A stretch of DNA of 64,000 nt. Source: Myxococcales bacterium. GTDB lineage: Bacteria > Myxococcota_A > UBA9160 > SMWR01. The stretch is taken from contig JADFQO010000006.1 in the NCBI GenBank assembly GCA_022561775.1, positions 1 to 64,000 on the forward strand. The letters run 5' to 3'. This document shows positions 24,813 to 42,884 of this stretch, in pieces. Position 1 is the stretch's first letter, and each line of letters starts with the position of its first letter. Position numbers and translations under genes: made by a program. The notes beneath the pieces were generated by a model, which had not been told where the DNA came from, ran no database searches, and saw nothing but the letters and a program-made list of their open reading frames with translations.

Positions 24813-25982
24813 TCAGCTCGCGCGCCGTCCGACGACTCTAGAGACCACCACAGCCGCCCCCTCTTTCGAGCTGTTCTGCTCGACGATCGTCGGGAGCGCG
24901 ACGACCATGTCCTCCAGGTAGACGCGGGCCGCTGGACTCGGGTCGACGAAACGCAGCGCCATCCCCTCCGGGCCGTCATCGCGTGTGATCTCAGCCACCA
25001 CCACTAGGGGTTGACCGTCGGGTCGAATGTGGACGGCGATGTCTAGTTGGTCCCCCACGGAGAGCCCGGGAGTCGGGTCGATCCGCATTCCGCCGACCGA
25101 GAGATCCCGGCCGATGAGAACCCGGGCGGCTTCGTCGCCCAGAGCGACGATGCGACGCGATAGCGTGTGCCGTTGATGGATGCGCCGTTCGCTTGACGTG
25201 TCGTCGGCGGGCTCGTCAAGGTCCGGGGGTTGCGGCTCGTCGTCCTCGGGAATGTTTGCCACGGAGTGGTGCGCGAGCGCAACGGCGTGATCGAGTACGG
25301 CGGGGCCGTGGCTGTGAGTCAACACGATCGACTCGAGCCGTTTACGCGCTGTTTCTCGGAGCAGTTCGAAGAGTACAGCGATTACGTCGGTGCCCGCATC
25401 GGCGCTCGAGACGCGCATGACCTGCCCACGCAGCGAGAGGGAACACCCGTCGTTGGTGACCTCGGGCGGCAGGACGACCGCCACCGATCGATCGGGGCCC
25501 GCGCGATGGCGGCCCTGTTCCGTCATCAGTCGGCAGCCCCGGGTCGATAGTTCCGCGAGAATTGCTGTTCGGCGGCGCAGCCCGATGCGAAAGCAGACCG
25601 TGGCTCCCATGCTGACACGGGTGGTGCGGCGCCTTTCGGGGCCGCGGTAGAGGGCGTGGAGGATCAAGAGCCTCAATGCAGCGTGATCCACGGGCTGGCG
25701 AACCAAGAGATCCGTATCGATCCGGTAGAGCATCTTGCGAAGCGTTTTCGAATCCCCGTCCAGGACCGCGATTCGAACCGCCGAGGTTTCGGGCAGATGC
25801 TCGTGAAGTTCGAGCATGCGATCCACGCTCGCAATGACGACATCCCAGGCCCTGGTGCGATCCGACTCCGTCGGATTTCCCCGTCGATCGATCCCGCCAA
25901 GCGGTTCGATGACCGCGGCCAGATCGGCCAGCTCGCCGTCGTGAAGCAGCAGTACTGAAGGCGTCGGTTTCTGGTATTCCAT
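24813..25982 (-). CDS. Double PilZ-domain protein with pseudo-receiver N-terminus
   Basis: A 389-residue cytoplasmic protein. Residues 1-110 resemble a response-regulator fold (SVLLLHDGE..AWDVVIASVD) without a clear phospho-acceptor. Then come two PilZ-type domains. The first (about 115-215: RGPERRRTTRVS.. ELSTRGCRLM) has a degenerate cyclic-di-GMP site. The second (about 265-375: SSERRIHQRHTLSRRI.. GRDLSVGGMRIDP) keeps the RxxxR and D/NxSxxG elements needed to bind cyclic-di-GMP. A likely effector of that messenger, possibly made by enzymes such as the GGDEF-EAL protein encoded at about 10-11.6 kb. It stands alone as a unit on the minus strand; the output is unknown. Confidence 0.78.
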   Translation of the reverse strand: MEYQKPTPSVLLLHDGELADLAAVIEPLGGIDRRGNPTESDRTRAWDVVIASVDRMLELHEHLPETSAVRIAVLDGDSKTLRKMLYRIDTDLLVRQPVDHAALRLLILHALYRGPERRRTTRVSMGATVCFRIGLRRRTAILAELSTRGCRLMTEQGRHRAGPDRSVAVVLPPEVTNDGCSLSLRGQVMRVSSADAGTDVIAVLFELLRETARKRLESIVLTHSHGPAVLDHAVALAHHSVANIPEDDEPQPPDLDEPADDTSSERRIHQRHTLSRRIVALGDEAARVLIGRDLSVGGMRIDPTPGLSVGDQLDIAVHIRPDGQPLVVVAEITRDDGPEGMALRFVDPSPAARVYLEDMVVALPTIVEQNSSKEGAAVVVSRVVGRRAS

Positions 25983-27364: not shown

Positions 27365-27499
27365 GCGGCCCCTCCACGCCGATCTGGATTCCCGATCTCT
27401 CGTATCGATGGGCGCAGCCGAGCGCTTGAGGCCCCACTCCGCGAATCGCGGCGCTCTGCTCGATTCCTTCCGAGCGCGATACTACAGTTGGGAGCATTC

Positions 27500-28882
27500 A
27501 TGCGGCTTTCGCGACTCGAGCGATTCCTGTGTCTTTTTACCGAAGTCCGCCCCGGCGAGGGCGTCAACGCGGTGCTCATGTTCGCCAACGTATTCCTGTT
27601 GCTCTGCGCCTATTACTTCGTCAAGCCCCTTCGGGAGGCCTGGCTATCCGTCACGGACGTGATGGGATTCTCGCCGAAAGAACTCAAGGCGTACTCGGCG
27701 TTGATTCAGGGTCTCCTGTTGCTTCCGGTTGTCGCGTGGTACGGGCGACTCTCGGACCGCATGCATCGCAGCACGCTGATTACCCGGGCCACCCTGTTCT
27801 GCATGTCCAATCTGGTGCTCTTCTTCCTTTGGCGTCCGGGTGGTCCGTTCGTCGCCATCCCGGGAATCGAGCTCGCGTTCTACGTCTGGGTGTCGATGTT
27901 CGGATTGTTCGTCGTCGCGCAATTCTGGACCTTCGCAGCGGATGTCTACACCGACGAGCGGGGTCGGCGCCTGATGCCGATGATCGCGATCGGGGCGACT
28001 GGCGGTGCCGCGTTTGGCTCTTCGGTCGTGACGCCGATGGTCAAGGGGGCGGAGTTCGGCGCTGACGTGCTCCTTCTCGCAGCCCTGGCGCCGCTGGCGG
28101 CTTCGATCGTGTTGACCCGCATGGTGGATTCCAGCGAACAGGGGCAGTCGAAAAAGGAGCCCTCCGGTGAGGGCGTGACTCCGCCCGCCGCAAGACCGCG
28201 GGGCGGGCTCGCGATGATCGCGACCAGCCGATTCCTGATCGCCGCCGCGGCGATCACGCTGCTGCTGAACTGGGTCAACACCAATGGAGAAAACCTCCTC
28301 TACAGCATCATCGTGGACTTCCTGCAATCGGAGGTGGCTGCAAACGGCCTCAGCGATCCAGAGGCGATCAAAGCCTTTACGAAGGATGGCGTAGCGGCCT
28401 TTTACGGCAATTTCTTCACCTGGGTGAACGCGGTCGCGCTCGTCCTGCAAGCGCTCGTCGCCTCCCGGCTGCTCAAATACGGCGGATTCAGGGTGATCTT
28501 GCTGATGCTGCCGGTCATTTCCCTGATGTCCTATGCGGTAATGGCGCTCGTGCCCGTTCTCATCGTGATCAAAATGATGAAGATCGCCGAGAATTCGACC
28601 GATTATTCGATCAACAACACGGCGCGAAACGTACTGTGGCTCCCCACCACGAAAGAGATGAAGTTCAAATGCAAGCCGGCGATCGACACCATCTTCGTAC
28701 GCCTGGGCGACGGCCTTGCCGCGGCGACCGTCTGGTTTGGCTCGAACGTCATCATCTTCTCCAACCAGGATTACTTCAGGTTCAACGTGGTGTTGGTACT
28801 GATCTGGCTGAGCGCCGCGATCGTCCTCGTTCGGGAACACCGAAAGGTGACGGAAGCGAATGCCGCAGCAGGGGGCGGTTAG
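27500..28882 (+). CDS. Nucleotide-translocase-like membrane protein (NTT/TLC superfamily)
   Basis: A 460-residue polytopic membrane protein with about 12 predicted helices. It shows the NTT/TLC-type opening RPGEGVNAVLMFANVFLLLCAYYFVKPLREAWL (about 17-50), the GRLSDR loop near 80, and ENSTDYSINNTARNVLWLP..KFKCKPAIDTIFVRLGD (about 350-390). These resemble distant ATP/ADP or NTP/NDP exchangers of obligate intracellular bacteria and their free-living relatives. ATG 27500 is chosen for the GGAG box 5 nt upstream. The next gene starts 2 bp after its stop, so transport and an exported hydrolase are co-expressed. Substrate not demonstrated; nucleotides are inferred from the family. Confidence 0.75.
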   Translation: MRLSRLERFLCLFTEVRPGEGVNAVLMFANVFLLLCAYYFVKPLREAWLSVTDVMGFSPKELKAYSALIQGLLLLPVVAWYGRLSDRMHRSTLITRATLFCMSNLVLFFLWRPGGPFVAIPGIELAFYVWVSMFGLFVVAQFWTFAADVYTDERGRRLMPMIAIGATGGAAFGSSVVTPMVKGAEFGADVLLLAALAPLAASIVLTRMVDSSEQGQSKKEPSGEGVTPPAARPRGGLAMIATSRFLIAAAAITLLLNWVNTNGENLLYSIIVDFLQSEVAANGLSDPEAIKAFTKDGVAAFYGNFFTWVNAVALVLQALVASRLLKYGGFRVILLMLPVISLMSYAVMALVPVLIVIKMMKIAENSTDYSINNTARNVLWLPTTKEMKFKCKPAIDTIFVRLGDGLAAATVWFGSNVIIFSNQDYFRFNVVLVLIWLSAAIVLVREHRKVTEANAAAGGG

Positions 28883-28884
28883 CG

Positions 28885-29886
28885 ATGGCGTCATGGTGGC
28901 TGATCGGGGCTCTTGTCTTCGTCTTCCCGTCTACTGCGGGCGCCGATGACCTGGGAGACGCCGGAGACGAGTATTGGGATGTGATCGAGACGACGAGCAT
29001 CAAGGAGTTGATGGAGCTCGATGGCATTGCCCGCTTCGAGGACAACGCGCCGCTTTGGGACTATCACGACGATGCACTGCAGAAAAGCGTCGATCGGGTA
29101 TTGGTCGATCTGGGGCTAGACGACGAAGCGAGCAAACAGCAGCTCAGTGTGGCGCTGATCGATCTGTCGCATCCGGGCCTGCCCCGGGTGGCTTCGGTCA
29201 ATGGCGACGTGATGATGTACGCCGCCAGCCTTCCGAAGATCGCAGTCCTGTTGGCGGCCTTCGAGAAGATCGCCCAAGGGAAGATGACCCTCGACGAGGC
29301 CACCGAGTACCGCCTGAGTCGGATGATCAAGGCGTCATCCAATCGCGACGCGACGGAAATGATGCACGAGGTCGGCAAGGAGTACATCGCCCGGGTGCTG
29401 CTCTCGCCGCGCTATCGCCTCTACGATCCGGAACACAACGGCGGACTTTGGGTCGGGAAGGATTACGCGAAGGCCGGCTTGTGGCGCCGAGATCCGCTTC
29501 ACAACCTCTCGCACGGCGCGACCGCCATGCAGGTGGCCCGCTTCTACTACCTGCTGGTGACCGACAATCTCGTGACGCCCGAGCACAGCCGGAAGATGCG
29601 AGAGATCCTCGCGGACAGCGAGCTGAACCACAAGTTCGTACGAGCGCTTCGGCAGATCGATCCCGACGCCGCCGTTTCGCGAAAGTCGGGTTCCTGGTCC
29701 ACCTATCACTCGGACAGCGTTCTCGTGGAGCGGGAGGGGCATCACTACATCGCCGTCGCGCTGAGCCACAACGCGAAGGGATCGCAATGGCTCGAACGCA
29801 TCATCCCCAAGCTCGACGCTCTGCTCGTTCGCGAAGGATCGGTGGCGGACCATCGGCCGGTCGGCACGAACCAGGCCGTTCGCTGA
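28885..29886 (+). CDS. Exported serine hydrolase, class A beta-lactamase fold (A)
   Basis: A 333-residue protein with an N-terminal signal peptide (MASWWLIGALVFVFPSTAGA, cleavage near 20). It has the three penicilloyl-serine-transferase motifs in order: SLPK (Ser115-Lys118), SSN (151-153) and KSG (267-269). The spacing fits class A beta-lactamase-like hydrolases, but no E-x-x-L-N general-base loop of true beta-lactamases was recognised, so a peptidoglycan or ester hydrolase is as likely as antibiotic resistance. ATG 28885 follows the translocase stop by 2 bp. Its 3' end nearly abuts that of serine hydrolase B in convergent orientation (3 bp between stops). Confidence 0.78.
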   Translation: MASWWLIGALVFVFPSTAGADDLGDAGDEYWDVIETTSIKELMELDGIARFEDNAPLWDYHDDALQKSVDRVLVDLGLDDEASKQQLSVALIDLSHPGLPRVASVNGDVMMYAASLPKIAVLLAAFEKIAQGKMTLDEATEYRLSRMIKASSNRDATEMMHEVGKEYIARVLLSPRYRLYDPEHNGGLWVGKDYAKAGLWRRDPLHNLSHGATAMQVARFYYLLVTDNLVTPEHSRKMREILADSELNHKFVRALRQIDPDAAVSRKSGSWSTYHSDSVLVEREGHHYIAVALSHNAKGSQWLERIIPKLDALLVREGSVADHRPVGTNQAVR

Positions 29887-29889
29887 TGG

Positions 29890-31245
29890 TTACTCGTCGG
29901 AATCGATCTCATCGATGACGCGCTGGATTGCGACTTCCTCAGACCCGTCACTCAACGTCGGCTCGCGGTCGGCCGAATCTTCGCGCGGCGGGTGGTCGCG
30001 CTCCATGATCTGGTGAATCTCGGTCGCGAGCCGCTTGTGGACCTGGGCTGAGTCCTTGCGCAGGACGTTCGACAGCAGCACGACGATGTACTGCAGCTGG
30101 CGCCCGGATTCGTCGGTTTCGACCATCGTGACGGAGTTCAAGTAGTTCCTCACATTTCCCTTGTACTTGCCGCAGGTGAAACCAGCTTCTTCCTTGCAGC
30201 TGTACAGTGATCCGGATTTGAAGTAGAGCGCCGCTCGGCGCAGGGCGGGTGATGCCGCGTAGCGGATACGGCCTTCCGAGAGGTAGATCAAGCGCTTGAT
30301 GGCGAGGCTCGAGTAGCGGTCGATCAGCGTTCCCTGCTCCATTTTGACGATGTAGCGCAGCAGTTCGAGCGGCGTCGCCACGCTGTTGGTGCCCGGAATG
30401 CGCGCCTTTCCCTCCCTCGTAAAGAAGCTCCCCTGGCGGAGCTTGCTGACGTCGAGGCCGTTGCGGGTGAGCGGGCTCTGGATCGCCTTGGTGTAGATGC
30501 TCGAAAGCTTCGATTTCGGGGTGTCCGCAAAGAACTTTTCGGTGGCTTCCCGAGAGACGGGATACTCGGCGCCGAAGTGCGAGAGCAGCACGAGTTGGGA
30601 CATCAGCGTACTGGCCGCGGCGTTGGAACTGCTCGACATCATCCAATCGAGCCAGGTCCAGAGATTTCCATCGTCGCCCTCGCGAATCGGGCGGTACTCG
30701 ACCTCGCTATCCCCCGGTTTCCAGAACGGAACCTTGTGGCTGTCCGAGCGGATGAACGCGTCCGCGACGTGGTGCGTGTTCTTCAACAGTGCATCGCGCG
30801 CCTCGGTGTCATCGGGGTAGGCGTCGGCAAGGGCCTGAAACCAGGCGAGTCCCACCATCATCTTGCCGACGCTGCCGGGGTTCTGGTTCTGCTCGGCGTT
30901 GTGCGCCGCGTAGCGCGGGTTCGCAGGGTCCGTGAGGTCCAGCACGGCGATCGCGTAGCCATCGGCATCTTCGCCGAGAAGCGCCCGGATCGAGGCGCTG
31001 AGTGCGGCGTCCGGAGCGGGGATCTCGAAATCCGGCTGGTCGATCAAGCGCAGCTGAATGTCGTCGCTCTCGAGCCGCGCTCCGGGTGGGAGCAGTCGCC
31101 CGCGGACCTGCCCGGTCTGGGCGAGCCGATAGGCTTCCAAGCGGAGGATCCCCGTCTGCTCGTAGGCGTCGAGGGGATAGCCGAGCGCGAGCTGCGGGAA
31201 TGTGAAGAGCGCGAATGCGCACGCGGTGAGGGTCGAGATCTTCAC
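29890..31245 (-). CDS. Exported serine hydrolase, class A beta-lactamase fold (B)
   Basis: A 451-residue protein from GTG 31245, which overlaps the stop of the dikinase-like gene (GTGA), implying coupled translation. A signal peptide ends near residue 22 (FALFTFPQLALG). The catalytic motifs are SVGK (Ser125-Lys128), SSN (206-208) and KSG (343-345). It is longer than protein A, with an 80-residue N-terminal extension and a Lys/Cys-containing insert after KSG (KEEAGFTCGKYKGNVRNYLN). An acidic C-terminal tail (about 425-451) is unusual. The frame is open upstream of the GTG, but there it lies inside the dikinase-like gene. Function unknown beyond the fold; it may act on cell-wall or envelope esters. 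Confidence 0.75.
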   Translation of the reverse strand: MKISTLTACAFALFTFPQLALGYPLDAYEQTGILRLEAYRLAQTGQVRGRLLPPGARLESDDIQLRLIDQPDFEIPAPDAALSASIRALLGEDADGYAIAVLDLTDPANPRYAAHNAEQNQNPGSVGKMMVGLAWFQALADAYPDDTEARDALLKNTHHVADAFIRSDSHKVPFWKPGDSEVEYRPIREGDDGNLWTWLDWMMSSSSNAAASTLMSQLVLLSHFGAEYPVSREATEKFFADTPKSKLSSIYTKAIQSPLTRNGLDVSKLRQGSFFTREGKARIPGTNSVATPLELLRYIVKMEQGTLIDRYSSLAIKRLIYLSEGRIRYAASPALRRAALYFKSGSLYSCKEEAGFTCGKYKGNVRNYLNSVTMVETDESGRQLQYIVVLLSNVLRKDSAQVHKRLATEIHQIMERDHPPREDSADREPTLSDGSEEVAIQRVIDEIDSDE

Positions 31246-34184
31246 GGCTCGGACTGCTTCGGAATCCCGAAGAGATCGACGCGCGCGGAACTGCGCTGCT
31301 GGAGTCCCGCATCGAGCCCGCTCAGGTATTGGTTGCGCTGGGCGTTCTTGTTTTCGACGAAGGGTCGAATCTGGAGCAGGGCGAGCTTGCCGTCCTTGAA
31401 CGCGAACTCGATGTCGGCGGGCAGCAGATGGCCCTTGTCGTCCCGCAAGGTCGGGAAACGCGTGACGTCCTGGGACATTGCAATCAACTGCTCGATCTCG
31501 CCGGGTTTGAGCACCTCGGTCGTTCCGCTCGAGGGAGCCTTTGCAACCCCGCCGCTGAGCGGGACCTGCGTGCGAAGCGGCGCGGTCGCTTGGGCGAGGA
31601 ATCGTACCTCGCCCGTGCGCGTGTCGATCTTCAGCGACTCGGCAGCCTGGCCCTCGACGGCACCGCCGGCCCCTTCGTTGACCGCCACGGTCAGAATGTT
31701 TGGATCTCCGGTTTCGAGATCGGCGGTGACCAGCACGCCCGATTTTTCGGCCTGGAAGCTGTACTGCACGACGACTGCGGGAAAGACGTACTCCGGATCC
31801 GTCATGTTGCCCTGTCGCCAACCATACGAGCGATTCTCGAAGGGTGAGGCCCAAACTTCCCGGATTGCATCAAGAATGTTCTCGTAACCGACAATGTTGG
31901 GCAATGTCAGATTGAGCCCTGCACCCGTGAAGCCGGGCAGGTCCTCGACATTGGTGTCGCTGCGGATGAATACGCCGTAGCTGCCATCGGCGCCGAAGTT
32001 CTCCTCGAGGGCCTCGCGCAATTGAGATCGGAACTCCGCCCCGGGGTCGCAGGTCTCGATCCAGTGGCGCAGCTTGGCGAGAAACGCGTGGACCGCCTCT
32101 TGCTGGAGCGCGGGATCGCTGTCCAGTTTGGCGATCACGTCGTAGCGCCCCTTCATCCACTCGAAGACCGAAGGGCCGCCGGATTCGATCGGTTGGTCGA
32201 GCACCTTCTTGAACGACGCGAAGGGGATGACGAATCCCGGCGGTACGGCGTCGCCGAAATAATGCTTGAGTTCTCCGAGATTGGCGCCCTTGGGGCCCGA
32301 GGATCGGCCCGAATCGGTTGCGCGCAACCGGCTGAGCGAGATCATCTCGGTGCGCTCGAGATCGAGCTTCTCGAGGTCGGGCCGAATCACCAATGCACCG
32401 CCCATCGCCGCGTTCGCACCGAATACCGCGTCCCAGCGCGGGCCGTCCTCGCTGAGTTGCACGACGCCGTGGGGACTGACCGCGAGGACCGATCGCGCGC
32501 CGACGTGCTTGCGAACGATGGGTAGGATTTCCTCCCCCACCACGACGTTGGGTACGCCGAGGTTTCGCGCGAGCAGCTGGACGTGGGATAGCGAGCTGCC
32601 TTCGCCGAGTGTGAGGATCCCCGATACCGGCGGCAGGTCGGAGAGCGTTTCAGGCAAGAGGTAGATGCCATCTCGCTCGTAATCGTCACCGGTCGCCTCG
32701 CGAAGCACGCCGCGAGACAGGCCCGGATTGAGTGCGCGCAGGCCCGCACCGATCTTCTTGCCGAAGAGTTCGTGTTCGATTCCCGCGAGTCGGTTGGCGT
32801 CGAGAACCATGCTGTCGATCACGGCGCCGTAGAAGAGCAGGGGGCTACCGCGCATCCGATCCTGGACGAAGAGGTGTGCGAGTGGCTCGATCTCCGAGAG
32901 CTTTGCGACGGGGATCGAAAAATCGAATGCGAGCCATCGCGCCGCCCACTCCGGCGCCCGCGCGAGGTAGCGCAGCTCTTCCCGGTAGTCGCCGACGCTG
33001 AGTGAAGCGCTCGATCGGGTGCGCTCGACGCTCGAACGCAGCTCGTGCAGGTGGCGGTCGCTGATGAAGCCGGCCCCGTAGAGCGCGGAGCCCGCCTGCT
33101 CGAGCCAACGCAGTCGCTGGATGCGCGTGCTGGAATCCAACTCCGTCAGGATCGCGCTACCCGCCACGAAGGCGTCCCCCTCGATGACGATGCTGCCGCG
33201 AAGCAATGCGATCACGCCTGCTGCGCTCGCGGAGTTCGGGATGCGATCGCGCAACTCGCGCAGCAGGCGCGCGGCGGTCTCGAAGCGCACGGCGGGGTTC
33301 GCGGCGTCGCCGAGCTCTGCCGCGGCGGTGCGGAGCTTGCGGTTTGCGTCCGGATCTTTCGTCTCGTCTGCGATCGCCAACAGCGCATCGGCGGCGGCGC
33401 GCGCGGCGTACAACTCGTCGATTGCCGCGGCGATCTTCGCGTACTCGGCGGCCAGCTCCGCCTTGCCGCCGGCCTTCTGGTATTCGCGGACGCGCTTCGC
33501 GTCAGCGGCGTCCGGCGCGTTGTGGATCTTGGCGCGCAGCTTGGCGAACGACGCGTCTTTGTCGGCGATCACGACCGCGAGTTGTCGGACCTCCGTCGCG
33601 GTTGTCGATTGGGACTCGCGTGGAAACCACCGGACCACCTGTCTCATCAACGCATAACGGGCGGGGCTGCGCCAGAGCGGGTCCGCGGCGATCGCGAGCA
33701 GGCTCGCGGTCGCGGCGGCCTCTTCGTCCTCGGCCTGGAATGCGCCTCGGTAGGAGCGCGCTCCGCGGAAGATCCAACCGTCGTCCGCTTGAATCAGGAA
33801 CTTCTCGATCAAGATTTGCTTCAGGGCATCGAGGTTCGCGTCCTCTCCGGTGAATTCGTCGGCTTCAATGGGCGCGAGCAGGTTGGCAATCGTGTAGCCG
33901 TCGGCGCGCATGCGCTGCACGCGCTCGGTCCAGAGGCCGTGCTGGATGCCGCCGCCGCGCCCCGAGCACGCATAGGCCTTCGGGGGTTGAACGGATCCAT
34001 CTGCGCAAAACCAACGGATCCCCTGGAAGGGGCCCTTGGGAGAGTCCTTCATCTCCCGAACCCAGTGCTGGAGTTCGCTCGGTTCCGGCGTCTGTGACGC
34101 AGCGGCGGGGGAGAGTGAAAGGCTCAGCGCAAGCGGCGCAAGCCACAGGGGGAGCCAACAGGGGGGTCGGATTTGCTCAGGCAT
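31242..34184 (-). CDS. Exported PEP-synthase/glucan-dikinase-like protein
   Basis: A 980-residue protein whose C-terminal half resembles dikinases such as PEP synthase, PPDK and plant glucan water dikinase. A swivel-type phosphohistidine domain (about 500-575) has His534 in GEGSSLSHVQLLARNLGVPNVVVG. An ATP-grasp domain follows (about 625-945), with SGPKGANLGELK, FIRSDTNVEDLPGFTGAG, AVVVQYSFQAEKSGVLVTAD and a final FAFKDGKLALLQIRPF. This order (His domain before ATP domain) is that of glucan dikinases. The N-terminal 450 residues are helical and unrecognised. ATG 34184 begins a signal peptide (LWLAPLALSLSLSPAAAS), placing a normally cytosolic ATP-using fold in the envelope. No acceptor is known. 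Confidence 0.75.
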   Translation of the reverse strand: MPEQIRPPCWLPLWLAPLALSLSLSPAAASQTPEPSELQHWVREMKDSPKGPFQGIRWFCADGSVQPPKAYACSGRGGGIQHGLWTERVQRMRADGYTIANLLAPIEADEFTGEDANLDALKQILIEKFLIQADDGWIFRGARSYRGAFQAEDEEAAATASLLAIAADPLWRSPARYALMRQVVRWFPRESQSTTATEVRQLAVVIADKDASFAKLRAKIHNAPDAADAKRVREYQKAGGKAELAAEYAKIAAAIDELYAARAAADALLAIADETKDPDANRKLRTAAAELGDAANPAVRFETAARLLRELRDRIPNSASAAGVIALLRGSIVIEGDAFVAGSAILTELDSSTRIQRLRWLEQAGSALYGAGFISDRHLHELRSSVERTRSSASLSVGDYREELRYLARAPEWAARWLAFDFSIPVAKLSEIEPLAHLFVQDRMRGSPLLFYGAVIDSMVLDANRLAGIEHELFGKKIGAGLRALNPGLSRGVLREATGDDYERDGIYLLPETLSDLPPVSGILTLGEGSSLSHVQLLARNLGVPNVVVGEEILPIVRKHVGARSVLAVSPHGVVQLSEDGPRWDAVFGANAAMGGALVIRPDLEKLDLERTEMISLSRLRATDSGRSSGPKGANLGELKHYFGDAVPPGFVIPFASFKKVLDQPIESGGPSVFEWMKGRYDVIAKLDSDPALQQEAVHAFLAKLRHWIETCDPGAEFRSQLREALEENFGADGSYGVFIRSDTNVEDLPGFTGAGLNLTLPNIVGYENILDAIREVWASPFENRSYGWRQGNMTDPEYVFPAVVVQYSFQAEKSGVLVTADLETGDPNILTVAVNEGAGGAVEGQAAESLKIDTRTGEVRFLAQATAPLRTQVPLSGGVAKAPSSGTTEVLKPGEIEQLIAMSQDVTRFPTLRDDKGHLLPADIEFAFKDGKLALLQIRPFVENKNAQRNQYLSGLDAGLQQRSSARVDLFGIPKQSEP

Positions 34185-34287
34185 GCGCGGCAGGATACGG
34201 CAAGTCGGTTCGAAAGGCGTCAAATTTAACCATTCGGCGCGGCCGCTCTGGCTCTCGTGATATCGTGCACTCGGCCGGAGGGGCGCG

Positions 34288-37200
34288 GTGGTGCGAAAGC
34301 TCGGCATCGAGCCCGGTGAGGGGCGCTTGTTCTTCTGGGGAGCCGCGGCACTCGCTCTTGCCGGCTGGGCGGACGTGTCCGTCAAGAACGTGTCGGAGAC
34401 GTTGTTCCTCAAGCGCGTCGGCGTCGAGTACCTTCCGCTCGCCTACCTGTTCAACTCCATTTTGCTGGTCGGAACGACCTACGTCATGGGGCGCCTGGTG
34501 GCCCGTTCGAACCGGCCCCGTCTGTTGCCGTGGATCTTCTTCGGCCTGTCGGTGCTTCTCCTACCCCTCTGGTACCTCGTCAGGGCTGATGCCATCAGCG
34601 CGTTCGTTCTCCTGGTTCTCGCCTCGAAGCAGTTCCAGTCGATTGCCCTGCTCGCCTACTGGCTCGCGATGGGCGATCTGCTGGACGGCCGCCAGGCGAA
34701 GCGGCTGTTTGCGCCGATGATGGCTGGCTACACACTGGGCAGCATCGGCGGGAGCTTCGCCTCCGATCCGATCGGCCGCGCGATTGGAATCGACGCCTTG
34801 CTCCCGGTCGCCGCAGCTGCGTTCGCGCTGAGCGGGCTGCTCACTCTTCCGTTGGAGCGGATCCTGCCGAAGGGTCTCGGCCGGGGTTCGTCGAGTGGCT
34901 CCAAGCGGAATCCGAGCGCTTCTCGCGGCATCGTGACCGAGGTGTCCTTTCGCGCGCTGTGGTCGGAGAGTCCGTTGTTTCAATTGCTCTTCGTCGGTGC
35001 GGCAGCCAGCGGTCTACTCGGTCCGATGTTGTACTTCCAGTTTCAATACGTGGCCGATCAGGCGGCGACCGGCGAGGAGGGCTTGCTCGCGCTGTTCGCC
35101 CAGTTCCGGGGCTGGATCAACGTCGGTGTGCTCGCGACCCAGATCCTGGTCACGGGGAATCTCTTCAAACGAATCGGAATTCCCCTGTCGATTGCGCTTT
35201 CGCCGGTCGTCTATCTGATCGGTTTTTGCGGCATGAGCATCCGACTCAGCCTGGTGGTGGGTGTCGGTGCTTTCGCGGGGACGAAGCTGCAGGACAGCGC
35301 CGTTTACGACCCGGCGATGCGAATTCTCTTCAATCTCTTTCCCGAGCGAGAGCGGTCGCGGGCCACGGGATTGCTCGAGGGTCCGGTCAAGCGGGCCGGT
35401 GGTGCAGTCGGGAACATCCTCAGTCTCGCAGCGGTTACCTTCGCGAGTGCGATCGCCGTGGGCTACGTCGCAATTCCGATTGCGCTGGCGTGGCTCGCGA
35501 CTTCGATCTCCCTCTGGCGCCGCTACCCCGCGCTGCTCCTGCGCGCCGCGGCCCGGCGTGCCCGTTACGGAGAAGACCTGGACATCTCGGAGATGATCGA
35601 TCCGAATACGGTGCGGGTTCTGTCGACGCACCTCGTGAGCAAGGATCCACGGCCCGCGATCGAACTGGTTTTGGAAGCGCGGCCCGCGGACGCCGCGAGC
35701 GCCCTCGCTGAAGCTGCAAGGGCTGCACCGGAGTCGACGCGGTCGTTGCTCATCGGCGCCCTCGACCGCGTACTCGTGCGCACGGTGACCGAACCGATGT
35801 CGAGTCGCCAGGCCTCCGAGGATCTCGAGCACCTGCTCGCGGAATCCGCCGGGCTGAGCGACCGGGATCGAGCGGATGTCGTGCACGCCTATGGCCGGCT
35901 GACTCCGGGCGACGAGGCGCTCCCAGTTCTCGAGAACGCGCTCGCGGATGCGTCAGCGGGGGTGCGCCTCGCGGCCGCCGCGGCTCTCGATCGACGCGGC
36001 CACCCGGTCGATGCGATCGGAGATCTCTCCGAGGCTCTCGAGCGGGCAATCGGGAGTGAGGATCCCGTCGAGCGGCGAATCGCGCTCGAGGAACTCCGGG
36101 CCCGTCTGCTCTGCTCGGAACCCGGGCCGAAGTGGGAGCGCAATCTCGAGCGGCTCTCCCGACTTCTCGACCTCGAAAGCGTTCGCACGCGCGCCGCTGA
36201 GGCGATCGCCGAAATTGCGCGTCGACATGGCGCGGCGACCGCGCTCGCGCGCGAGAGTACGCTCAAGTACCGAGAGGCTGCGGATCCGCGCTTGCGTGCC
36301 GCGCTGTTGTGTTTCTACGGATACGCGGGGTTCGTCGATCAGGCTCCCTGGATGGTCGAGCAGATCGCCGTCGACGGTGGGCCGCGTCTCCGTGCGGTTC
36401 GGGATGCGGCGCGAGAGGGCCTGATCGCATTGGGTTCGGAAGTGGCCGACGTACTGCTCGTCGAGCTCTCGTTTGGCAAACGCCGCACGCGCGATGCGAT
36501 CCTCCCGATCCTGCGTCAGCTTCACGTGGAGCGCGCGACGCTCCGCAATCTCTACGAGCGCGAACTCGAATCGGTCCGGCGAAAATTGATCCACCGACAC
36601 GCGCTCAGCCAGGAACTCGCCGCGGCGATCGTTCTCCAGCGTCTGCGCGAGCGCACCGATGAGGCATTGCACACCGCGCTGCTGCTCCTCGCTGCGATCT
36701 ACGACGAGGATCGCATCGCGGAGTTGGGAGAGAGGATCAAGCGCGGCGGTGGTGCGGGAATCAACGCGATGCTGATCGAAGCGTTGGATGCGTTGCTCGG
36801 GCCTCATGAGAAGGCCGAGTTGATGCCATTGATGGGTGATCGACCGCTGGCATTGCGCGCGCGCTCCGCAGCGGCCTCGCTCGGAGTCCTGGTGCCGAAC
36901 GTACGGCAGGCGACCCTCGCGTTGCTCGAGGAGTCCGATGAACTCACCCGCATGCTGGTGGCCGAAACGCTGTTGGAATCGATCGAAGCCGAGGATCGTC
37001 TGGCCAGCTCGGAGGATCTAGAGGATCATCGGAAGGTGCTGAACCCGGTTGAAATTGCGCTTCACCTGAAGAGCCTGCCGCTGTTCGAGGGGTTGACGAC
37101 CCGCCAGCTGATGGATCTCGCGAATGAGATTCGCGAAGAGCAGCACGACGCGGAGAGGGTTATCTTTCGGGAGGGCGATCCCGGAGATTGCCTCTATTTG

Positions 37201-37461
37201 ATCGTGGAAGGGCAGGTCCGGGTCACGCGCGGGGAAACGCTGCTGCGTGAACAGGGACCCAAGAGTTTCTTCGGAGAAATTGCCGTCCTGGAGGGCGCAA
37301 ACCGAACCGCCACGATCACGACCACGACCCCGGTGCGGTTTCTCCGCCTGGACCGCGACAACCTGCTGCGTCTGATGGAGGAGTTGCCGGCGATCGCGAT
37401 CGGAATCTGCCAAACGCTCTCGCGGCGAGTCAGTGAACTCACGGGGCGCGTGCGCGCGTAA
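34288..37461 (+). CDS. NTT/MFS-like transporter fused to HEAT-like repeats and a cyclic-nucleotide-binding domain
   Basis: A 1057-residue fusion. Residues 1-420 form a membrane domain of about 12 helices related to the NTT/TLC superfamily (EPGEGRLFFWGAAALALAGWADVSVKNVSETLFLKRVG; NLFPERERSRATGLLEGPVKRAGGAVGN). Residues about 430-900 are charged helical pairs like HEAT/ARM repeats, with many LEAL/AA-rich helices. Residues about 925-1050 form a CAP-type effector domain with EGDPGDCLYLIVEGQVRV and the phosphate-binding cassette FFGEIAVLEGANRTATI. Start GTG 34288 with GGAGGGG upstream; 103 bp divergent from the dikinase-like gene. A transporter regulated by cyclic nucleotide or another ligand is a reasonable inference, not proven. 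Confidence 0.78.
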   Translation: MVRKLGIEPGEGRLFFWGAAALALAGWADVSVKNVSETLFLKRVGVEYLPLAYLFNSILLVGTTYVMGRLVARSNRPRLLPWIFFGLSVLLLPLWYLVRADAISAFVLLVLASKQFQSIALLAYWLAMGDLLDGRQAKRLFAPMMAGYTLGSIGGSFASDPIGRAIGIDALLPVAAAAFALSGLLTLPLERILPKGLGRGSSSGSKRNPSASRGIVTEVSFRALWSESPLFQLLFVGAAASGLLGPMLYFQFQYVADQAATGEEGLLALFAQFRGWINVGVLATQILVTGNLFKRIGIPLSIALSPVVYLIGFCGMSIRLSLVVGVGAFAGTKLQDSAVYDPAMRILFNLFPERERSRATGLLEGPVKRAGGAVGNILSLAAVTFASAIAVGYVAIPIALAWLATSISLWRRYPALLLRAAARRARYGEDLDISEMIDPNTVRVLSTHLVSKDPRPAIELVLEARPADAASALAEAARAAPESTRSLLIGALDRVLVRTVTEPMSSRQASEDLEHLLAESAGLSDRDRADVVHAYGRLTPGDEALPVLENALADASAGVRLAAAAALDRRGHPVDAIGDLSEALERAIGSEDPVERRIALEELRARLLCSEPGPKWERNLERLSRLLDLESVRTRAAEAIAEIARRHGAATALARESTLKYREAADPRLRAALLCFYGYAGFVDQAPWMVEQIAVDGGPRLRAVRDAAREGLIALGSEVADVLLVELSFGKRRTRDAILPILRQLHVERATLRNLYERELESVRRKLIHRHALSQELAAAIVLQRLRERTDEALHTALLLLAAIYDEDRIAELGERIKRGGGAGINAMLIEALDALLGPHEKAELMPLMGDRPLALRARSAAASLGVLVPNVRQATLALLEESDELTRMLVAETLLESIEAEDRLASSEDLEDHRKVLNPVEIALHLKSLPLFEGLTTRQLMDLANEIREEQHDAERVIFREGDPGDCLYLIVEGQVRVTRGETLLREQGPKSFFGEIAVLEGANRTATITTTTPVRFLRLDRDNLLRLMEELPAIAIGICQTLSRRVSELTGRVRA

Positions 37462-37951: not shown

Positions 37952-37982
37952 TGATCTCACGCGCCAACTCTGCTCCTGATGG

Positions 37983-38534
37983 ATGGCTCCCGCCGCGGCC
38001 CCCGAAACGCGCGGGGTGGAACCACTCCTGATGCACGGCTTCAGCTTCGCTCGAGCGCTCGCGGTGAGTGGCATCCTGGTAGCCGGGTTTTCCAGCGCCG
38101 GGGAGTCGCCCGTCCTTCGGGTCTCCGGCATGACCTTCGTTGGGAGTCGAGGAGACCAGTCCGAACTGGTGGTGCATGCCGACACCGCATTCTTTCATCC
38201 GGACTCGGATCTGGCAGATCTGGAAGTCGTGCGGGCGCGGGTTTTGGACGCCGAGAAGGGCGAGAGCTTCCGGATGCAATGCGATCGAGCCGAGCTCGAC
38301 GTCGAGACGAACGATTTTACCGCGACCGGGAACGTGAAGGGTATCACCGGGGAGGGGCAGCGCTACAGCGCACCCTGGGTCCGCTACGAACACGCGTCTT
38401 CGATGCTTCGGACGGACGCACCGGTCACCGTGGTCGACGGCGGCATCACGTTTCGCGGAGATGGTTTTCGCTACCACATCGAAGAGCGCCGTTTCGAGTT
38501 GCTCGGAAACGTCGTGATGGAGCAGGCCAATTGA
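37983..38534 (+). CDS. lptC: LPS export periplasmic protein LptC
   Basis: Inner-membrane-anchored bridge component that passes lipopolysaccharide from LptBFG to LptA. The 183-residue protein has a hydrophobic N-terminal segment (FARALAVSGILVAGFSSAG) and an OstA/LptC-type beta-jellyroll made of repeated strands (LRVSGMTFVG, ELDVETNDFTATGNVKGI, TDAPVTVVDGGITFRGDGFRYHIEERRFELLGNVVM). The length is similar to E. coli LptC (191). ATG 37983 or ATG 38031 (MHGFSF) could be the start; the later one leaves a tidier membrane anchor. The gene overlaps lptA by 4 bp. Confidence 0.82.
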   Translation: MAPAAAPETRGVEPLLMHGFSFARALAVSGILVAGFSSAGESPVLRVSGMTFVGSRGDQSELVVHADTAFFHPDSDLADLEVVRARVLDAEKGESFRMQCDRAELDVETNDFTATGNVKGITGEGQRYSAPWVRYEHASSMLRTDAPVTVVDGGITFRGDGFRYHIEERRFELLGNVVMEQAN

Positions 38535-39502
38535 AAAGCTGGATTTCCACCCTCGGCGTGACGCTCTCGCTTTCGCTGCCCGCTCTCGACGCAGCCATCG
38601 CGGACGACCTGTCCCGAGTCGGAGACGAAATCGCTGCCGAAGCTGCCCGCGTGCGAGTTGGCGTGGCTCCGTTCGAAGCGGCGGGCCCGTCAGGCGTCGC
38701 GGTGCCCGACTTTGCGACGCTCCTCGCCGATCTGCTCGGGACCCGCGGAGTCAGGCGCATCGTCGGCCCCGAGCAGCTCGGGGTGCCCGCGACCGCGCAG
38801 ATCGAAGCGAGCGCCATCCGGGCGTGGGCTGCAGCGGCCGCGGTGGACGGCGTCGTGGTCGGTAGGACCACTCGGCTCGGAAGTCGCTTCAGCATCGACG
38901 TGCAGCTGCTCTCGGCGACGTCGGGAGCCGTGGTCGACAGCTACATCGCCGAAATCGCGCGCAGCGATCAGGTGACGTCGGCGATCGCGAAGCTGGCCGA
39001 TCAGGTGATCGAGGGCGTCCTCGGCCTCGTGGATCGCGCAGCGCCGTCCGCAGCGGTTTTGAACCCCAGCCTGGGTGTCTTCGACAGCTCCACGCGGATC
39101 TCGATCAAATCGGCGACCCTCGAGGCCACGGAGGTCAACGGGAACCGGAGACTCGTGTTCAGCGGTGATGTGCATGTCGTTCAAGGCGACATCACGATGA
39201 CCTCCAACCGACTGACGGCCGACTACCCCAAGGGAACGAGCGAGCCCAGCCGATTGGTCGCCCAAGGCTCGGTCCGCGTCGTTCAGGGCAACCAGGAAGC
39301 GCGCTGCGACAGCGGAACCTTTCAGCGGGCCGAGAAGTTGCTGGTCTGTTGCGGTCACGCAGAACTCCGGGACGGCGCGAGTCGGGTGCGGGGCAAGTGC
39401 ATCGAGTTCGATCTGGGTAACCAAACGGTTCGCGTCGAGGACGCCACCGTGAACCTCATCCCCGAGCCGAGCGACGACGGCTCGGGAAAGTCCGGGGGGT
39501 AG
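38531..39502 (+). CDS. lptA: LptA-like LPS transport protein with an extra N-terminal FlgO/TolB-N-like domain
   Basis: A 323-residue exported protein. A signal-peptide-like start (about 1-25) is followed by residues 40-165 resembling the TolB N-terminal, FlgO or CsgG-like fold (VRVGVAPFEA..TRGVRRIVGPEQLG..DGVVVGRTTRLGSRFSIDVQLLSATSGAVV). Residues about 187-310 are the OstA-type LptA beta-jellyroll (ISIKSATLEATEVNGNRRLVFSGDVHVVQGDITMTSNRLTADYP, then RLVAQGSVRVVQGNQEARCDSG). Normal LptA is about 180 residues, so the first domain is an addition. The start is TTG 38531, overlapping the lptC stop as TTGA; no ATG or GTG nearby fits. It bridges LPS from LptC to the outer-membrane LptD. Confidence 0.8.
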   Translation: MKSWISTLGVTLSLSLPALDAAIADDLSRVGDEIAAEAARVRVGVAPFEAAGPSGVAVPDFATLLADLLGTRGVRRIVGPEQLGVPATAQIEASAIRAWAAAAAVDGVVVGRTTRLGSRFSIDVQLLSATSGAVVDSYIAEIARSDQVTSAIAKLADQVIEGVLGLVDRAAPSAAVLNPSLGVFDSSTRISIKSATLEATEVNGNRRLVFSGDVHVVQGDITMTSNRLTADYPKGTSEPSRLVAQGSVRVVQGNQEARCDSGTFQRAEKLLVCCGHAELRDGASRVRGKCIEFDLGNQTVRVEDATVNLIPEPSDDGSGKSGG

Positions 39503-40230
39503 TGGCGGTGAGCTCGCTGAGCGGAATGGCACTGACCAAACGCTACGGGCAGCGAGACGTGGTTCGATCGGTCGATCTGAAGGTGAAGCCCGCCGAGGTC
39601 GTGGGGCTCTTGGGGCCGAACGGCGCCGGCAAGACCACCACCTTCAACATGATGGCGGGCGGCGTGAAGCCCTCTTCGGGCGAAGTCTTTCTCGGAGAGA
39701 CGAAGATTACGGGCTTGCCGATGTACCGCCGGGCGCGCCTCGGGATTACGTATCTCCCGCAGGAACCATCGATTTTCAGGAAGCTTTCCGTCGCCGACAA
39801 CGTCAACGCCATTCTCGAAACCGTGGAACTCGACCGAACGGTTCGGCGAGAAAGGCTGAGAGAGCTTTTGGCAGAGCTCGGTCTGACCGAAAAGGCGGAT
39901 TTAAGGGCGGACACGCTTTCCGGTGGAGAAAGACGCCGTGTGGAGATTACGCGCGCCTTGGTGCTCGATCCGAAATTCATGCTGCTCGATGAACCGTTTG
40001 CGGGAATCGACCCGATCGCGGTCAACGACATCCAGAAGATCATCGAGCAACTCAAGGGCAAGGGGATCGGGGTCATCATCACGGACCACAACGTCCGGGA
40101 GACGCTGTCGATCTGCGATCACGCCTACATCATCAAGGATGGAGAAATCATCCGGAGAGGGTCGCCCGAGGAGATCGCGTCTGATGAACAGGTCCGGCGG
40201 ATCTATCTCGGGGAAAACTTCCAACTTTGA
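39502..40230 (+). CDS. lptB: LPS export ABC transporter ATP-binding protein LptB
   Basis: Cytoplasmic ATPase of the LptB2FG extractor. The 242-residue protein has Walker A GPNGAGKT (about 37-44), the Q-loop in LPQEPSIFRKLSV, the signature LSGGERRR, Walker B FMLLDEPFAGIDP and the His switch TDHNV. This is almost the textbook LptB sequence pattern. It starts at GTG 39502 in a TAGTG overlap with the lptA stop; a second in-frame GTG lies at 39508. The partners LptF and LptG are not in the window. Confidence 0.96.
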   Translation: MAVSSLSGMALTKRYGQRDVVRSVDLKVKPAEVVGLLGPNGAGKTTTFNMMAGGVKPSSGEVFLGETKITGLPMYRRARLGITYLPQEPSIFRKLSVADNVNAILETVELDRTVRRERLRELLAELGLTEKADLRADTLSGGERRRVEITRALVLDPKFMLLDEPFAGIDPIAVNDIQKIIEQLKGKGIGVIITDHNVRETLSICDHAYIIKDGEIIRRGSPEEIASDEQVRRIYLGENFQL

Positions 40231-40265
40231 GGGCTTCCAGCGCTGACAGGGAGCGTGGAAAGCCC
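40231..40265 (+). other. Intercistronic hairpin between lptB and rpoN
   Basis: The stop of lptB is followed at once by GGGCTTCCAGCGCT (40231-40244), a 7-nt loop, and AGCGTGGAAAGCCC (40252-40265). These pair over about 13 positions with one bulge on each arm. No T-run follows, so it looks less like an intrinsic terminator than like an attenuator, RNA-stability or processing site within the operon, and could let rpoN expression differ from lpt expression. Confidence 0.6.
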
Positions 40266-40279
40266 AGTGGAATGAGCCA

Positions 40280-41764
40280 ATGGCCATCGAGCTGAAACAG
40301 CAATTACGCCTGACCCAGCAGCTGGTGATGACACCGCAGCTGCAGCAGGCCATCAAGCTGCTTCAGCTGAATCGGCTCGAACTCGTGGGCCTCGTCCAGC
40401 AGGAGCTTCAGGAGAACCCGGTTCTCGAAGAGGTTGCCGAGGCCGACGAAGAAGCCGAGGTTCCGGGCGGGGAATACGAGGCTGCAGCGGAGTCGCAGCC
40501 GGCTGCGAGCGAAGAGCGCTCCGGCGACGAAGCGGCCGCAGCGGATGCGCAGAATTCGAGTGAAGAACTCACGGACGCTGAGAAAATTGCGGACCTGGAG
40601 TGGCTCGATTACCTCAACTCGAACCCGCAGACGTCACACGTCTCCGGCGGCGACGAGGATCGGCCTTCGATCGATGCCACGCTCACCCGTCGCGATACAC
40701 TGGCCGAGCACCTCGTGTGGCAGTTGCAGCTCATGGAGTTTCCGATCGAGGAAGAGGTCGCGGCCCGATTCATCATCGGCAATATCGACGAGCGCGGTTA
40801 CCTGCAGGCCACGATCAGCGAACTCGCCCGGCAATCCGGCATGTCGGAAGCCACCGTCGAATCCGCGCTGGCTCGGGTTCAGGAGTTGGATCCCGTCGGC
40901 GTGGCCGCGCGGGACCTGAGGGAGTGCCTGCTCCTCCAGGTCCGAACACTCGAGATCGACGATCCATTGGTGCTGCGCATTCTCGAGGAGTGTCTCGATA
41001 CGCTCATCAAGCGCGACTTCCGAGGAGTTGCTCGATTACTCGACGTCAGCGTGTCCGAGGTCGTCGTAGCTGCCGACGTCATCGGTCAGCTCGAGCCGCG
41101 CCCGGGCCGCGCGTTCGGGAGCGACGAGCCCGTGTACATCGTCCCCGACATCTACATCCACAAGGTCAAGGATGAATTTCACATTGTCTTGAACGATGAC
41201 GGGATGCCCCGGCTCCGGATCAACGGTCTCTACCGCGACGTTCTCTCGCGCGGAAACGGTGCCTCGAAGGACACCAAGGAATACGTACGGGAAAAGGTTC
41301 GATCCGCGCTCTGGCTCATCAAGTCCATCCATCAGCGTCAGCGCACCATCTACCGGGTGATGGAGAGCATCATCAAATACCAGCGAGAATTTTTCGAACG
41401 GGGAATCAACCACCTCAAGCCCCTCAACCTACGCGATGTCGCAGATGACATTGAAATGCACGAGTCGACCGTCAGCCGGGTCACGACCGCGAAATACGTC
41501 AATACACCCCAGGGAATCTTCGAGTTGAAGTTCTTCTTCAACTCCAGCATCAACCGGTTCGTGGGAGACGCCGTGGCGAGCGAGAGCGTCAAGGAGCGGA
41601 TCCGCAAGCTGATCACCGCGGAGGATCCGCGCCGCCCGCTTTCCGACCAGCGGATCGCCGAGATGCTCCGGGTCGCCAATATCGACATCGCCCGCCGCAC
41701 GGTCACGAAATACCGCGAATCGCTGAATATTCTCTCGTCGACGAAACGGCGCGAAGTCGGCTAG
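40280..41764 (+). CDS. rpoN: RNA polymerase sigma-54 factor
   Basis: Alternative sigma factor that recognises -24/-12 promoters and needs an AAA+ activator. The 494-residue protein has the Gln/Leu-rich region I (LRLTQQLVMTPQLQQAIKLLQLNRLEL, about 10-36) and an acidic region II (about 50-110). The core-binding domain follows, then the helix-turn-helix and the C-terminal RpoN box ARRTVTKYRE (about 471-480). It is followed after 29 bp by ptsN, the usual proteobacterial arrangement, but no hpf gene separates them. At least one very good sigma-54-type promoter is visible elsewhere in this window (59.3 kb). Confidence 0.97.
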   Translation: MAIELKQQLRLTQQLVMTPQLQQAIKLLQLNRLELVGLVQQELQENPVLEEVAEADEEAEVPGGEYEAAAESQPAASEERSGDEAAAADAQNSSEELTDAEKIADLEWLDYLNSNPQTSHVSGGDEDRPSIDATLTRRDTLAEHLVWQLQLMEFPIEEEVAARFIIGNIDERGYLQATISELARQSGMSEATVESALARVQELDPVGVAARDLRECLLLQVRTLEIDDPLVLRILEECLDTLIKRDFRGVARLLDVSVSEVVVAADVIGQLEPRPGRAFGSDEPVYIVPDIYIHKVKDEFHIVLNDDGMPRLRINGLYRDVLSRGNGASKDTKEYVREKVRSALWLIKSIHQRQRTIYRVMESIIKYQREFFERGINHLKPLNLRDVADDIEMHESTVSRVTTAKYVNTPQGIFELKFFFNSSINRFVGDAVASESVKERIRKLITAEDPRRPLSDQRIAEMLRVANIDIARRTVTKYRESLNILSSTKRREVG

Positions 41765-41793
41765 CCTCCTGCCCGCGAATTGAGGGACTTCCG

Positions 41794-42255
41794 ATGAAGA
41801 TCATGGATATCCTCGTGAACGATGCCGTGATCCTGAATCTGGGAGTCGGCAGCAAGCGCGAGGTGCTCGCAGAAATGGCTGGCGCGCTGGCCAAGGTGGA
41901 ACCCCAGATCGAGGCCGATCGCCTCTTGGAGGTGCTCCAGGAGCGCGAGGCGCTCCAGAGCACTGGAATCGGGGACGGCGTCGCAATCCCGCACGGGAAG
42001 ATGGCCGGCCTCGACCGCCTGGTCGCCTCCTTCGCTCGGAGCCCGGAAGGGGTCGATTTCGAATCGATCGACCGCCAGGCGACCCATCACTTCTTTTTGC
42101 TCGTCGTGCCCGAGCACTCCGGTGGCCAGTACCTGAAAGCCCTGGCGCGTATCTCGCGTTTCTTCCGAGACGCGGCCTTCCGCCAGCAGCTCACCAATGC
42201 CGAGACGCAGGGCGACATCATCCGGGCCATTGCCGAAGAGGACACCAGGCTCTAG
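41794..42255 (+). CDS. ptsN: Nitrogen-related PTS EIIA protein
   Basis: Regulatory EIIA-Ntr, phosphorylated on a histidine through a PTS-type relay and acting on targets such as K+ transport and sigma-54-linked functions. The 153-residue protein starts MKIMDILVNDAVILNLGVGSKREVLAEMA and has the active-site motif GDGVAIPHGK with the phospho-accepting His. The length is typical. ATG 41794 has GAGGGA about 6 nt upstream. Its stop codon TAG is the first three bases of a 66-bp repeat element that continues into the gap before hprK. Confidence 0.94.
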   Translation: MKIMDILVNDAVILNLGVGSKREVLAEMAGALAKVEPQIEADRLLEVLQEREALQSTGIGDGVAIPHGKMAGLDRLVASFARSPEGVDFESIDRQATHHFFLLVVPEHSGGQYLKALARISRFFRDAAFRQQLTNAETQGDIIRAIAEEDTRL

Positions 42256-42319
42256 GAGCCTCACACCAGAATGGGGTGAGGCGACGCCGCAAGCGAATCC
42301 GAGGGATTCGACCGCTAGC
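42253..42319 (+). repeat. 66-bp two-hairpin repeat, copy A (ptsN-hprK)
   Basis: Begins at the TAG stop of ptsN: TAGGAGCCTCAC then a hairpin (GCCTCAC / GTGAGGC around a CCAGAATGG core), a GCGACGCCGCAAGC connector, then a second hairpin GAATCC-GAG-GGATTC (42295-42309). Copies at 48912 and 50104 align along their whole length without gaps. The TAGGAGC head and double hairpin resemble REP elements, which are moved by RAYT transposases; none is encoded here. Confidence 0.8.
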
Positions 42320-42359
42320 CCTAGTCGCGTGACGCCCGTTCAGCGGATTCGGAGAGACC

Positions 42360-42884
42360 ATGACGGTTTCGGTCCATGGCGCGCTCCTCGAGGTCCACGG
42401 CGTTGGGACCGCGTTGCTTGGCCCGAGCGGAATCGGCAAGAGCGAGTGCGCGCTGGAGCTGCTGAGTCGCGGGCATCGACTCGTCGCAGACGACGTGATC
42501 GAACTGACGCCCGAATCGGACGACCGCGTCACGGGGCGCGCGCCCGAGAGGATTCGCCACTACATGGAAATCCGCGGAATCGGAATCTTCTTCGTTCCGG
42601 ATCTATACGGTGCGGATTCGGTCTGCGATGAAGTGGCTGTCGATCTGATCTGTCGACTCGAGCGTTGGCGGGAGGGCGTCGCCTACGAGCGCGTCGGGTT
42701 GGAGCGGCCGGAAGAGGAGTTTGGCGGTGTCCGGCTGCCGCGGCTGACGCTGCCTGCGCGGCCCGGTGGATCCATGGCGACGGTCGTGGAACTAGCGGCC
42801 CGCGAGCACCTGCAGCGCCGATCGGGCGTGAACGCAGCGCAGCGCCTCGATCAGCGCTTGCGGGACGAAATGGGGCGACGTTGA
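42360..42884 (+). CDS. hprK: HPr kinase/phosphorylase, short catalytic-domain form
   Basis: Phosphorylates and dephosphorylates the regulatory serine of HPr. Only the C-terminal P-loop kinase domain is present (174 residues; full-length HprK has about 310). It has Walker A GPSGIGKS (21-28), the ADDVIEL acidic motif, and the HprK signature around MEIRGIGIFFV. No N-terminal domain is seen, as in the short forms of alphaproteobacteria. ATG 42360 has GGAGAG just upstream. Its stop overlaps the rapZ TTG start. The HPr gene is three genes downstream, so kinase and target are co-expressed. Confidence 0.9.
   Translation: MTVSVHGALLEVHGVGTALLGPSGIGKSECALELLSRGHRLVADDVIELTPESDDRVTGRAPERIRHYMEIRGIGIFFVPDLYGADSVCDEVAVDLICRLERWREGVAYERVGLERPEEEFGGVRLPRLTLPARPGGSMATVVELAAREHLQRRSGVNAAQRLDQRLRDEMGRR

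Follow-up and report, generated by a model that had tools for sequence, protein, structure and literature searches.

The window analyzed here is a stretch of 64,000 nucleotides from an uncultured Myxococcales bacterium (contig JADFQO010000006.1), and close to its center lies a gene designated F0 (P0001), accompanied by the genes F1, F2, F3 and F4. F0 is transcribed leftwards (31242-34184, minus strand), from an ATG at 34184 to a TGA at 31242-31244, with a frame that is open throughout and encodes 980 amino acids. Its full-length homologs share 49-85% amino acid identity, and because relatives at this level are present in 26 of 61 related genomes, the observation lies far beyond chance.

The N-terminus of F0 contains a predicted signal peptide (residues 1-29; 34098-34184, minus strand), called from its composition and its conservation across relatives, with cleavage at about the junction of AAA and SQ; a hydrophobic core and an A-x-A motif are present in 26 of 26 aligned relatives. 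The hydrophobic stretch ends small-x-small and occupies the same position in all 26 of these F0-family sequences although the residues themselves vary, which is the pattern that a conserved signal for export should show and supports the ATG at 34184 as the start. Export signals are kept in the 18 orthologs and 7 paralogs of F0 in the alignment. A longer open reading frame from a TTG at 34412 was considered and rejected, since its extension runs into the divergent gene that starts at 34288, and the relatives do not conserve it. The start and signal peptide proposed in an earlier, sequence-only reading of this DNA are thus upheld, and F0 is predicted to be an exported protein. Between F0 and the divergently transcribed F4 is an intergenic region of 34185-34287, and no sigma-70-like site was found in the part of it that was scanned.

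Downstream of the signal peptide F0 is organized as an all-helical domain of about 440 residues, a swivelling phosphohistidine domain, and a PPDK_N ATP-grasp domain. The ATP-grasp domain (residues 630-952; 31329-32297, minus strand) matches Pfam PPDK_N with an E-value of 1.3e-29, and in an AlphaFold2 model of F0 built on an alignment of 26 relatives (pLDDT 85.5, pTM 0.81) Foldseek aligns it with the ATP-binding domain of the Listeria rifampin phosphotransferase (Rph, 5hv6) at a TM-score of 0.85 by target length; among the matches listed for this fold there are only PPDK-superfamily and remoter ATP-grasp proteins. The phosphohistidine domain precedes it (about residues 471-579; 32448-32774, minus strand), with a Pfam PEP-utilizers match at residues 510-552 (E 3.9e-4) whose 20.4 bits are slightly below the cut-off of 23.1. 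The swivel histidine, His534, is encoded at 32583-32585 within GEGSSLSHVQLLARNLGVPN, in the protein context LSHVQLLARNLGVPN, and is invariant in the F0 alignments. The ATP-site residues, located by alignment through PEP synthase and rifampin phosphotransferase, are present as K632, R741, E926, Q938 and R940, and their equivalents are kept in the 18 orthologs and 7 paralogs, save in contig-truncated MAG proteins. With the Lys, Arg, Glu, Gln, Arg and swivel His intact, F0 is placed by its sequence in the ATP-grasp/swivelling-His phosphotransferase superfamily. The sequence-only reading had recognized His534 and a PPDK/PEP-synthase-type ATP-binding domain in the C-terminal half, with the His domain before the ATP domain; all of these assignments are borne out, and the nucleotide-binding Lys, Arg and Glu are conserved wherever the proteins extend to them.

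The N-terminal domain (residues 33-467; 32784-34088, minus strand) is more unusual. Modelled alone by AlphaFold2 it is almost entirely helical (pLDDT 87.7, pTM 0.82), and neither a Pfam match nor a PDB fold match was obtained for it, the best hit in the PDB having an E-value of 0.53 and a TM-score of 0.15; these searches likewise returned no CBM45 or CBM20 starch-binding module, in agreement with the earlier description of this part as unlike known modules of that kind. It is nonetheless well conserved, with the motifs GPF..IRWFC.DG and GGG.QHG.W and invariant residues that include (in mature numbering) G19, P20, C28, G31, C41, N69, E95, G115, E120, H189, R377, E380 and W381. This domain is the obvious candidate for the part that would bind the phosphate acceptor.

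The genes around F0 fall into transporter-like and enzyme-like types. F2 (27488-28882, plus strand) encodes a membrane transporter resembling the NTT (ATP/ADP translocase) family, with a Pfam TLC match of 23.8 bits (cut-off 21). Its profile matches only solved NTT-family ADP,ATP carriers in the PDB (9j3j, E 5.8e-8, and 9j3n, E 2.6e-6), and it scores 24.5 bits with NCBIfam TIGR00769 against a cut-off of 387; profile homology thus suggests that F2 is a remote member of the NTT family. F4 (34288-37461, plus strand), divergent from F0, is a putative NTT-HEAT-cNBD fusion with a strong cNMP_binding match (E 5.9e-20) and weak HEAT_2 and MFS matches, that to HEAT_2 being 17.8 bits and below the cut-off. 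Its membrane part has neither a TLC match in Pfam nor a direct sequence match in the PDB, and aligns with F2 by hhalign (probability 98.2, E 2.8e-14). F1 (28885-29886, plus strand; Pfam E 3.7e-18) and F3 (29890-31245, minus strand; also by Pfam) encode two related exported SxxK enzymes of the Beta-lactamase2 family (E 1.2e-15 between them by hhalign), and the SxxK, SxN and K(S/T)G motifs of beta-lactamase/DD-peptidase-type enzymes are conserved in both families. The invariant residues are S108xxK111, S144xN146 and K260xG262 in F1, and S125xxK128, S206xN208 and K343SG in F3. The F1 gene begins 2 nt after the F2 stop, and the GTG start of F3 overlaps the F0 TGA by 4 nt (GTGA, 31242-31245), an overlap shared by most relatives. 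The F2-F1 and F0-F3 pairs are thus tightly coupled, and the cluster is predicted to be in part translationally coupled.

Elsewhere in the window, the segment downstream of F4 (37979-44157) looks like a cluster for LPS export and PTS regulation, in which an LptA/LptD_N-type protein is followed by genes resembling lptB, rpoN, PTS IIA, HPr kinase, rapZ and a mannose-type PTS IIA, all but LptD_N being recognized by eye. To the left of F2, at 24813-25982, is a gene for a protein with two PilZ stretches, a possible cyclic-di-GMP receptor.

The 26 genomes with F0 orthologs belong nearly all to the same order, and some of them contain in addition an F0 paralog of 30% identity. Across the phylum, in a draw of 284 genomes, full-length F0 relatives were confined to the class, and a single scan of genome contigs for relatives in other phyla yielded them only in records labelled Myxococcota, Deltaproteobacteria or Myxococcaceae, the matches elsewhere being ordinary PEP-synthase-like proteins; a search of plasmids returned PEP-synthase/Rph-type matches only. 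More distant relatives in the phylum keep the His-ATP order, and have a different and shorter N-terminal part. Nearly all of those inspected have an export signal, and many of these signals end in a lipobox-like cysteine; such exported, often lipoprotein-anchored proteins with shorter N-terminal parts are found phylum-wide (L090-L093 and L095-L104). A maximum-likelihood tree built on the ATP-grasp domain splits 24 exported proteins from six PEP-synthase-like proteins with support of 100/99; the tree is unrooted, samples few cytoplasmic enzymes, and includes three outgroup rows that are long or compositionally odd.

The neighborhood is conserved as well as the gene, with F1, F2, F3 and F4 recurring next to F0 in several of the order's families; it is this conserved arrangement of F0 with an NTT-like transporter, a putative NTT-HEAT-cNBD fusion and a pair of exported SxxK enzymes that is new here. 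Another family of the class has a variant cluster consisting of an NTT-HEAT protein, F1, and the accessory genes F8 and F6. Taking E<1e-200 as the threshold for a cluster-type NTT, 23 of the 61 genomes contain both F0 and this NTT, 3 contain F0 without it, none contains the NTT without F0, and 35 have neither (Fisher p 7e-14, by a test that ignores shared ancestry and linkage). Families f4 and f5 have one positive genome each, and in either case it contains both F0 and the cluster-type NTT. The strong-type NTT-HEAT-cNBD protein never occurs without F0 in the 61-genome set, and is missing beside F0 in family f7. Physical linkage and common descent account for part of the co-occurrence, and a single pathway cannot be proved from gene order alone.

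The wider phylum presents a looser association. In one genome of another class, the gene for a distant exported His-ATP protein (L092, 8548-10485) converges with an NTT-HEAT-cNBD gene at a distance of 260 bp, the two together spanning L092:8548-14239. NTT-like proteins are common without an F0-type enzyme, with a TLC match in 38 of 141 phylum genomes, and most distant lipoprotein-type relatives are in genomes with no detectable NTT of the cluster kind. Of the 15 genomes that encode distant exported His-ATP proteins, 5 gave an NTT-like match with each profile, so that exported dikinases do not appear to require an NTT in general. We also note that at L091:2306-3013 a stand-alone cyclic-nucleotide-binding protein adjoins an exported His-ATP lipoprotein.

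Several accessory exported proteins are found at related loci. F10 is encoded head to head with an F2-type NTT gene in four loci (L038:3444-4427, L039:273-1499, L040:7646-8743 and L064:4935-5918) and has a weak PI3/4-kinase match (E 2.5e-4), with its match to Fam20C at noise level only. The kinase-like residues K82, E101, D196, N201 and D217 are invariant in the four sequences, and F10 is a possible second periplasmic ATP-using enzyme. F8 is a lipoprotein akin to the periplasmic cysteine proteases of the LapG type (4fgo, E 1.3e-4), encoded at some loci (L036:3392-4090, L042, L044, L047 and L094) upstream of an F0-type dikinase or an NTT, and F6, also present at some loci, is a small exported protein. 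The 30%-identical paralog of F0 adjoins F1-type SxxK enzymes and also F5, which is exported and about 550 amino acids long (L054:5816-7453, L056, L057 and L058). F5 contains the motif SRGP(V/M)S(H/S)GCT, whose SHGC is reminiscent of L,D-transpeptidases; no Pfam or PDB profile match supported such an assignment.

What can be read directly from sequence is the domain make-up, the catalytic residues, the signals for export, the conserved cluster with its gene overlap, and the co-occurrence; from these we infer the dikinase chemistry of F0, an acceptor site in its N-terminal domain, and an envelope substrate. In glucan water dikinase (GWD), PEP synthase and rifampin phosphotransferase, ATP phosphorylates a histidine with the release of AMP and phosphate. 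By analogy, the ATP-grasp domain of F0 would bind ATP and transfer its beta-phosphate to His534, releasing AMP and phosphate, and the His domain would then swivel and deliver the phosphate to an acceptor bound in the helical N-terminal domain. The acceptor would most likely be an envelope component, either the cell wall or another periplasmic glycan. Because F0, F1, F3 and the accessory proteins all bear export signals we place this reaction outside the inner membrane, where F0 would act alongside the two SxxK acyl-enzymes, F1 and F3. A reaction in that location needs a source of ATP, and the NTT genes of the same cluster are natural candidates; the transporters would bring ATP to the periplasm and take back the spent nucleotide. 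This role in nucleotide supply is likely but unproven, and is the most inferential step of the main reading. Taken as a whole, the proposal that F0 is an envelope phosphotransferase using ATP outside the inner membrane, with the cluster NTTs supplying ATP and recovering spent nucleotide, has in our estimation about an even chance of being correct.

A serious rival to the nucleotide-supply step is that the NTTs import scavenged nucleotides and export no ATP, with F0 acting extracellularly on ATP from lysed prey or neighbors; many relatives in this phylum are predators, and we regard this explanation as unlikely but deserving of attention. Known bacterial and parasite NTTs do import nucleotides (PMC5381601), but the tight coupling of the cluster across families, including that of the F2-F1 pair, suggests a standing role, and there is no sign of secretion beyond the periplasm. 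The neighbors could alternatively be a co-inherited envelope island in which an exported and active F0 is found together with NTT and SxxK proteins that have unrelated jobs, as might be supposed from the absence of F4 beside F0 in family f7 and from the many NTT-like proteins in genomes without F0. However, F2 and F0 co-occur in separate families, and the F0-like/NTT-HEAT-cNBD neighborhood in another class is independent, and we think this explanation very improbable.

Other alternatives concern F0 itself. The most obvious is that it is a bacterial glucan dikinase proper, phosphorylating an exported or periplasmic alpha-glucan as GWD does starch. The His-before-ATP order is that of GWD and PWD, and the GWD phosphohistidine model PF22973 (GWD1_pHisD) matches distant exported relatives in 12 of 141 genomes at sub-threshold levels (E 1.5e-4 to 8e-3; 13.9-20.9 bits, under the cut-off of 27). 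F0, however, has no match to this model even at an E-value of 10 and lacks CBM20 and CBM45, and the recurrent neighbors are SxxK enzymes, with no glucan enzyme recognized among them; we consider this function quite unlikely. The glucan-dikinase likeness put forward in the sequence-only reading therefore holds as a matter of domain order and not as one of membership, and that interpretation is partly supported, with glucan dikinase not established as the function of F0. The neighborhood, which that reading did not use, gives the strongest clue, and it favors chemistry of the envelope over metabolism of storage glucans. Still less probable, and to our minds highly unlikely, is that the ATP-grasp/His part serves as a sensor or regulator that binds nucleotide and transfers no phosphate: F0 does lack a TIM barrel or known acceptor domain, but the catalytic residues, with the His among them, are all conserved in two paralogous groups and in the distant exported relatives. 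Finally, F0 could be an ordinary cytoplasmic PEP synthase/PPDK-like enzyme with a mis-called start, in line with Pfam and NCBIfam naming only PEP-synthase/PPDK/Rph-type families for it. This is already largely refuted and scarcely credible, given the export signal in all relatives, the clade apart from the sampled PEP-synthase-like proteins, and the features by which membership of the PEP synthase, PPDK and Rph families was rejected, namely a best NCBIfam score of 98.5 bits against cut-offs of 598-1700 bits, no PEP/pyruvate TIM barrel by Pfam, and an inverted rather than ATP-first order.

ATP-grasp/phosphohistidine dikinases are known from the cytoplasm or from organelles, and ATP is usually considered absent from the bacterial periplasm; the real interest of F0 is its export together with its conserved link to NTTs. 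This uncultured Myxococcota-type bacterium and its kin may, as judged from sequence, use ATP outside the inner membrane. We tentatively raise the broader possibility, which we regard as rather doubtful at present, that Myxococcota-type bacteria energise the periplasm with ATP, with inner-membrane NTT-type translocases exporting ATP and recovering spent nucleotide, and exported enzymes phosphorylating the envelope. The exported ATP-dependent set would then comprise the swivelling-His dikinase and, in some species, a PI3K/Fam20-like kinase, and the NTTs of these free-living bacteria would run in the opposite direction to those of intracellular parasites. A search of the literature on exported dikinases and on periplasmic ATP supply by NTTs, with most subscription journals outside its scope, found nothing relevant. 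A conserved exported family with an intact ATP site, genetically tied to ATP/ADP-translocase-like proteins, makes two questions testable: what role the NTT and NTT-HEAT-cNBD proteins play in free-living bacteria, and whether there are bacteria that carry out ATP-dependent reactions beyond the inner membrane.

Comparison with known systems places F0 among several without identity to any. With Rph (5hv1, 5hv6 and 5fbs) it shares the ATP-grasp fold and the Lys, Arg, Glu, Gln and Arg that bind ATP, but in Rph, a cytoplasmic enzyme, the ATP domain is first and the His domain last, and F0 lacks the rifampin-binding domain. PEP synthase and PPDK resemble it in their ATP-grasp and swivelling His domains and in residue conservation, and differ in having the opposite domain order and a TIM barrel, and in not being exported. 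GWD and PWD have C-terminal PPDK_N domains with the His domain before the ATP domain (PMC11986951, PMC6805951), and F0 is like them in this arrangement, in the conserved catalytic His and in its large N-terminal part; unlike them it is bacterial and predicted to be exported, with a helical N-terminal domain of no known fold in place of CBM45 or CBM20. As for the transporters, the NTT-HEAT-cNBD architecture is widespread in bacteria and has been called functionally uncharacterised (Major et al. 2017, PMC5381601); F4 probably has this described architecture and F2 matches solved NTTs at the profile level, but here, in bacteria with no known intracellular lifestyle in a host, both are linked to exported, putatively ATP-dependent enzymes.
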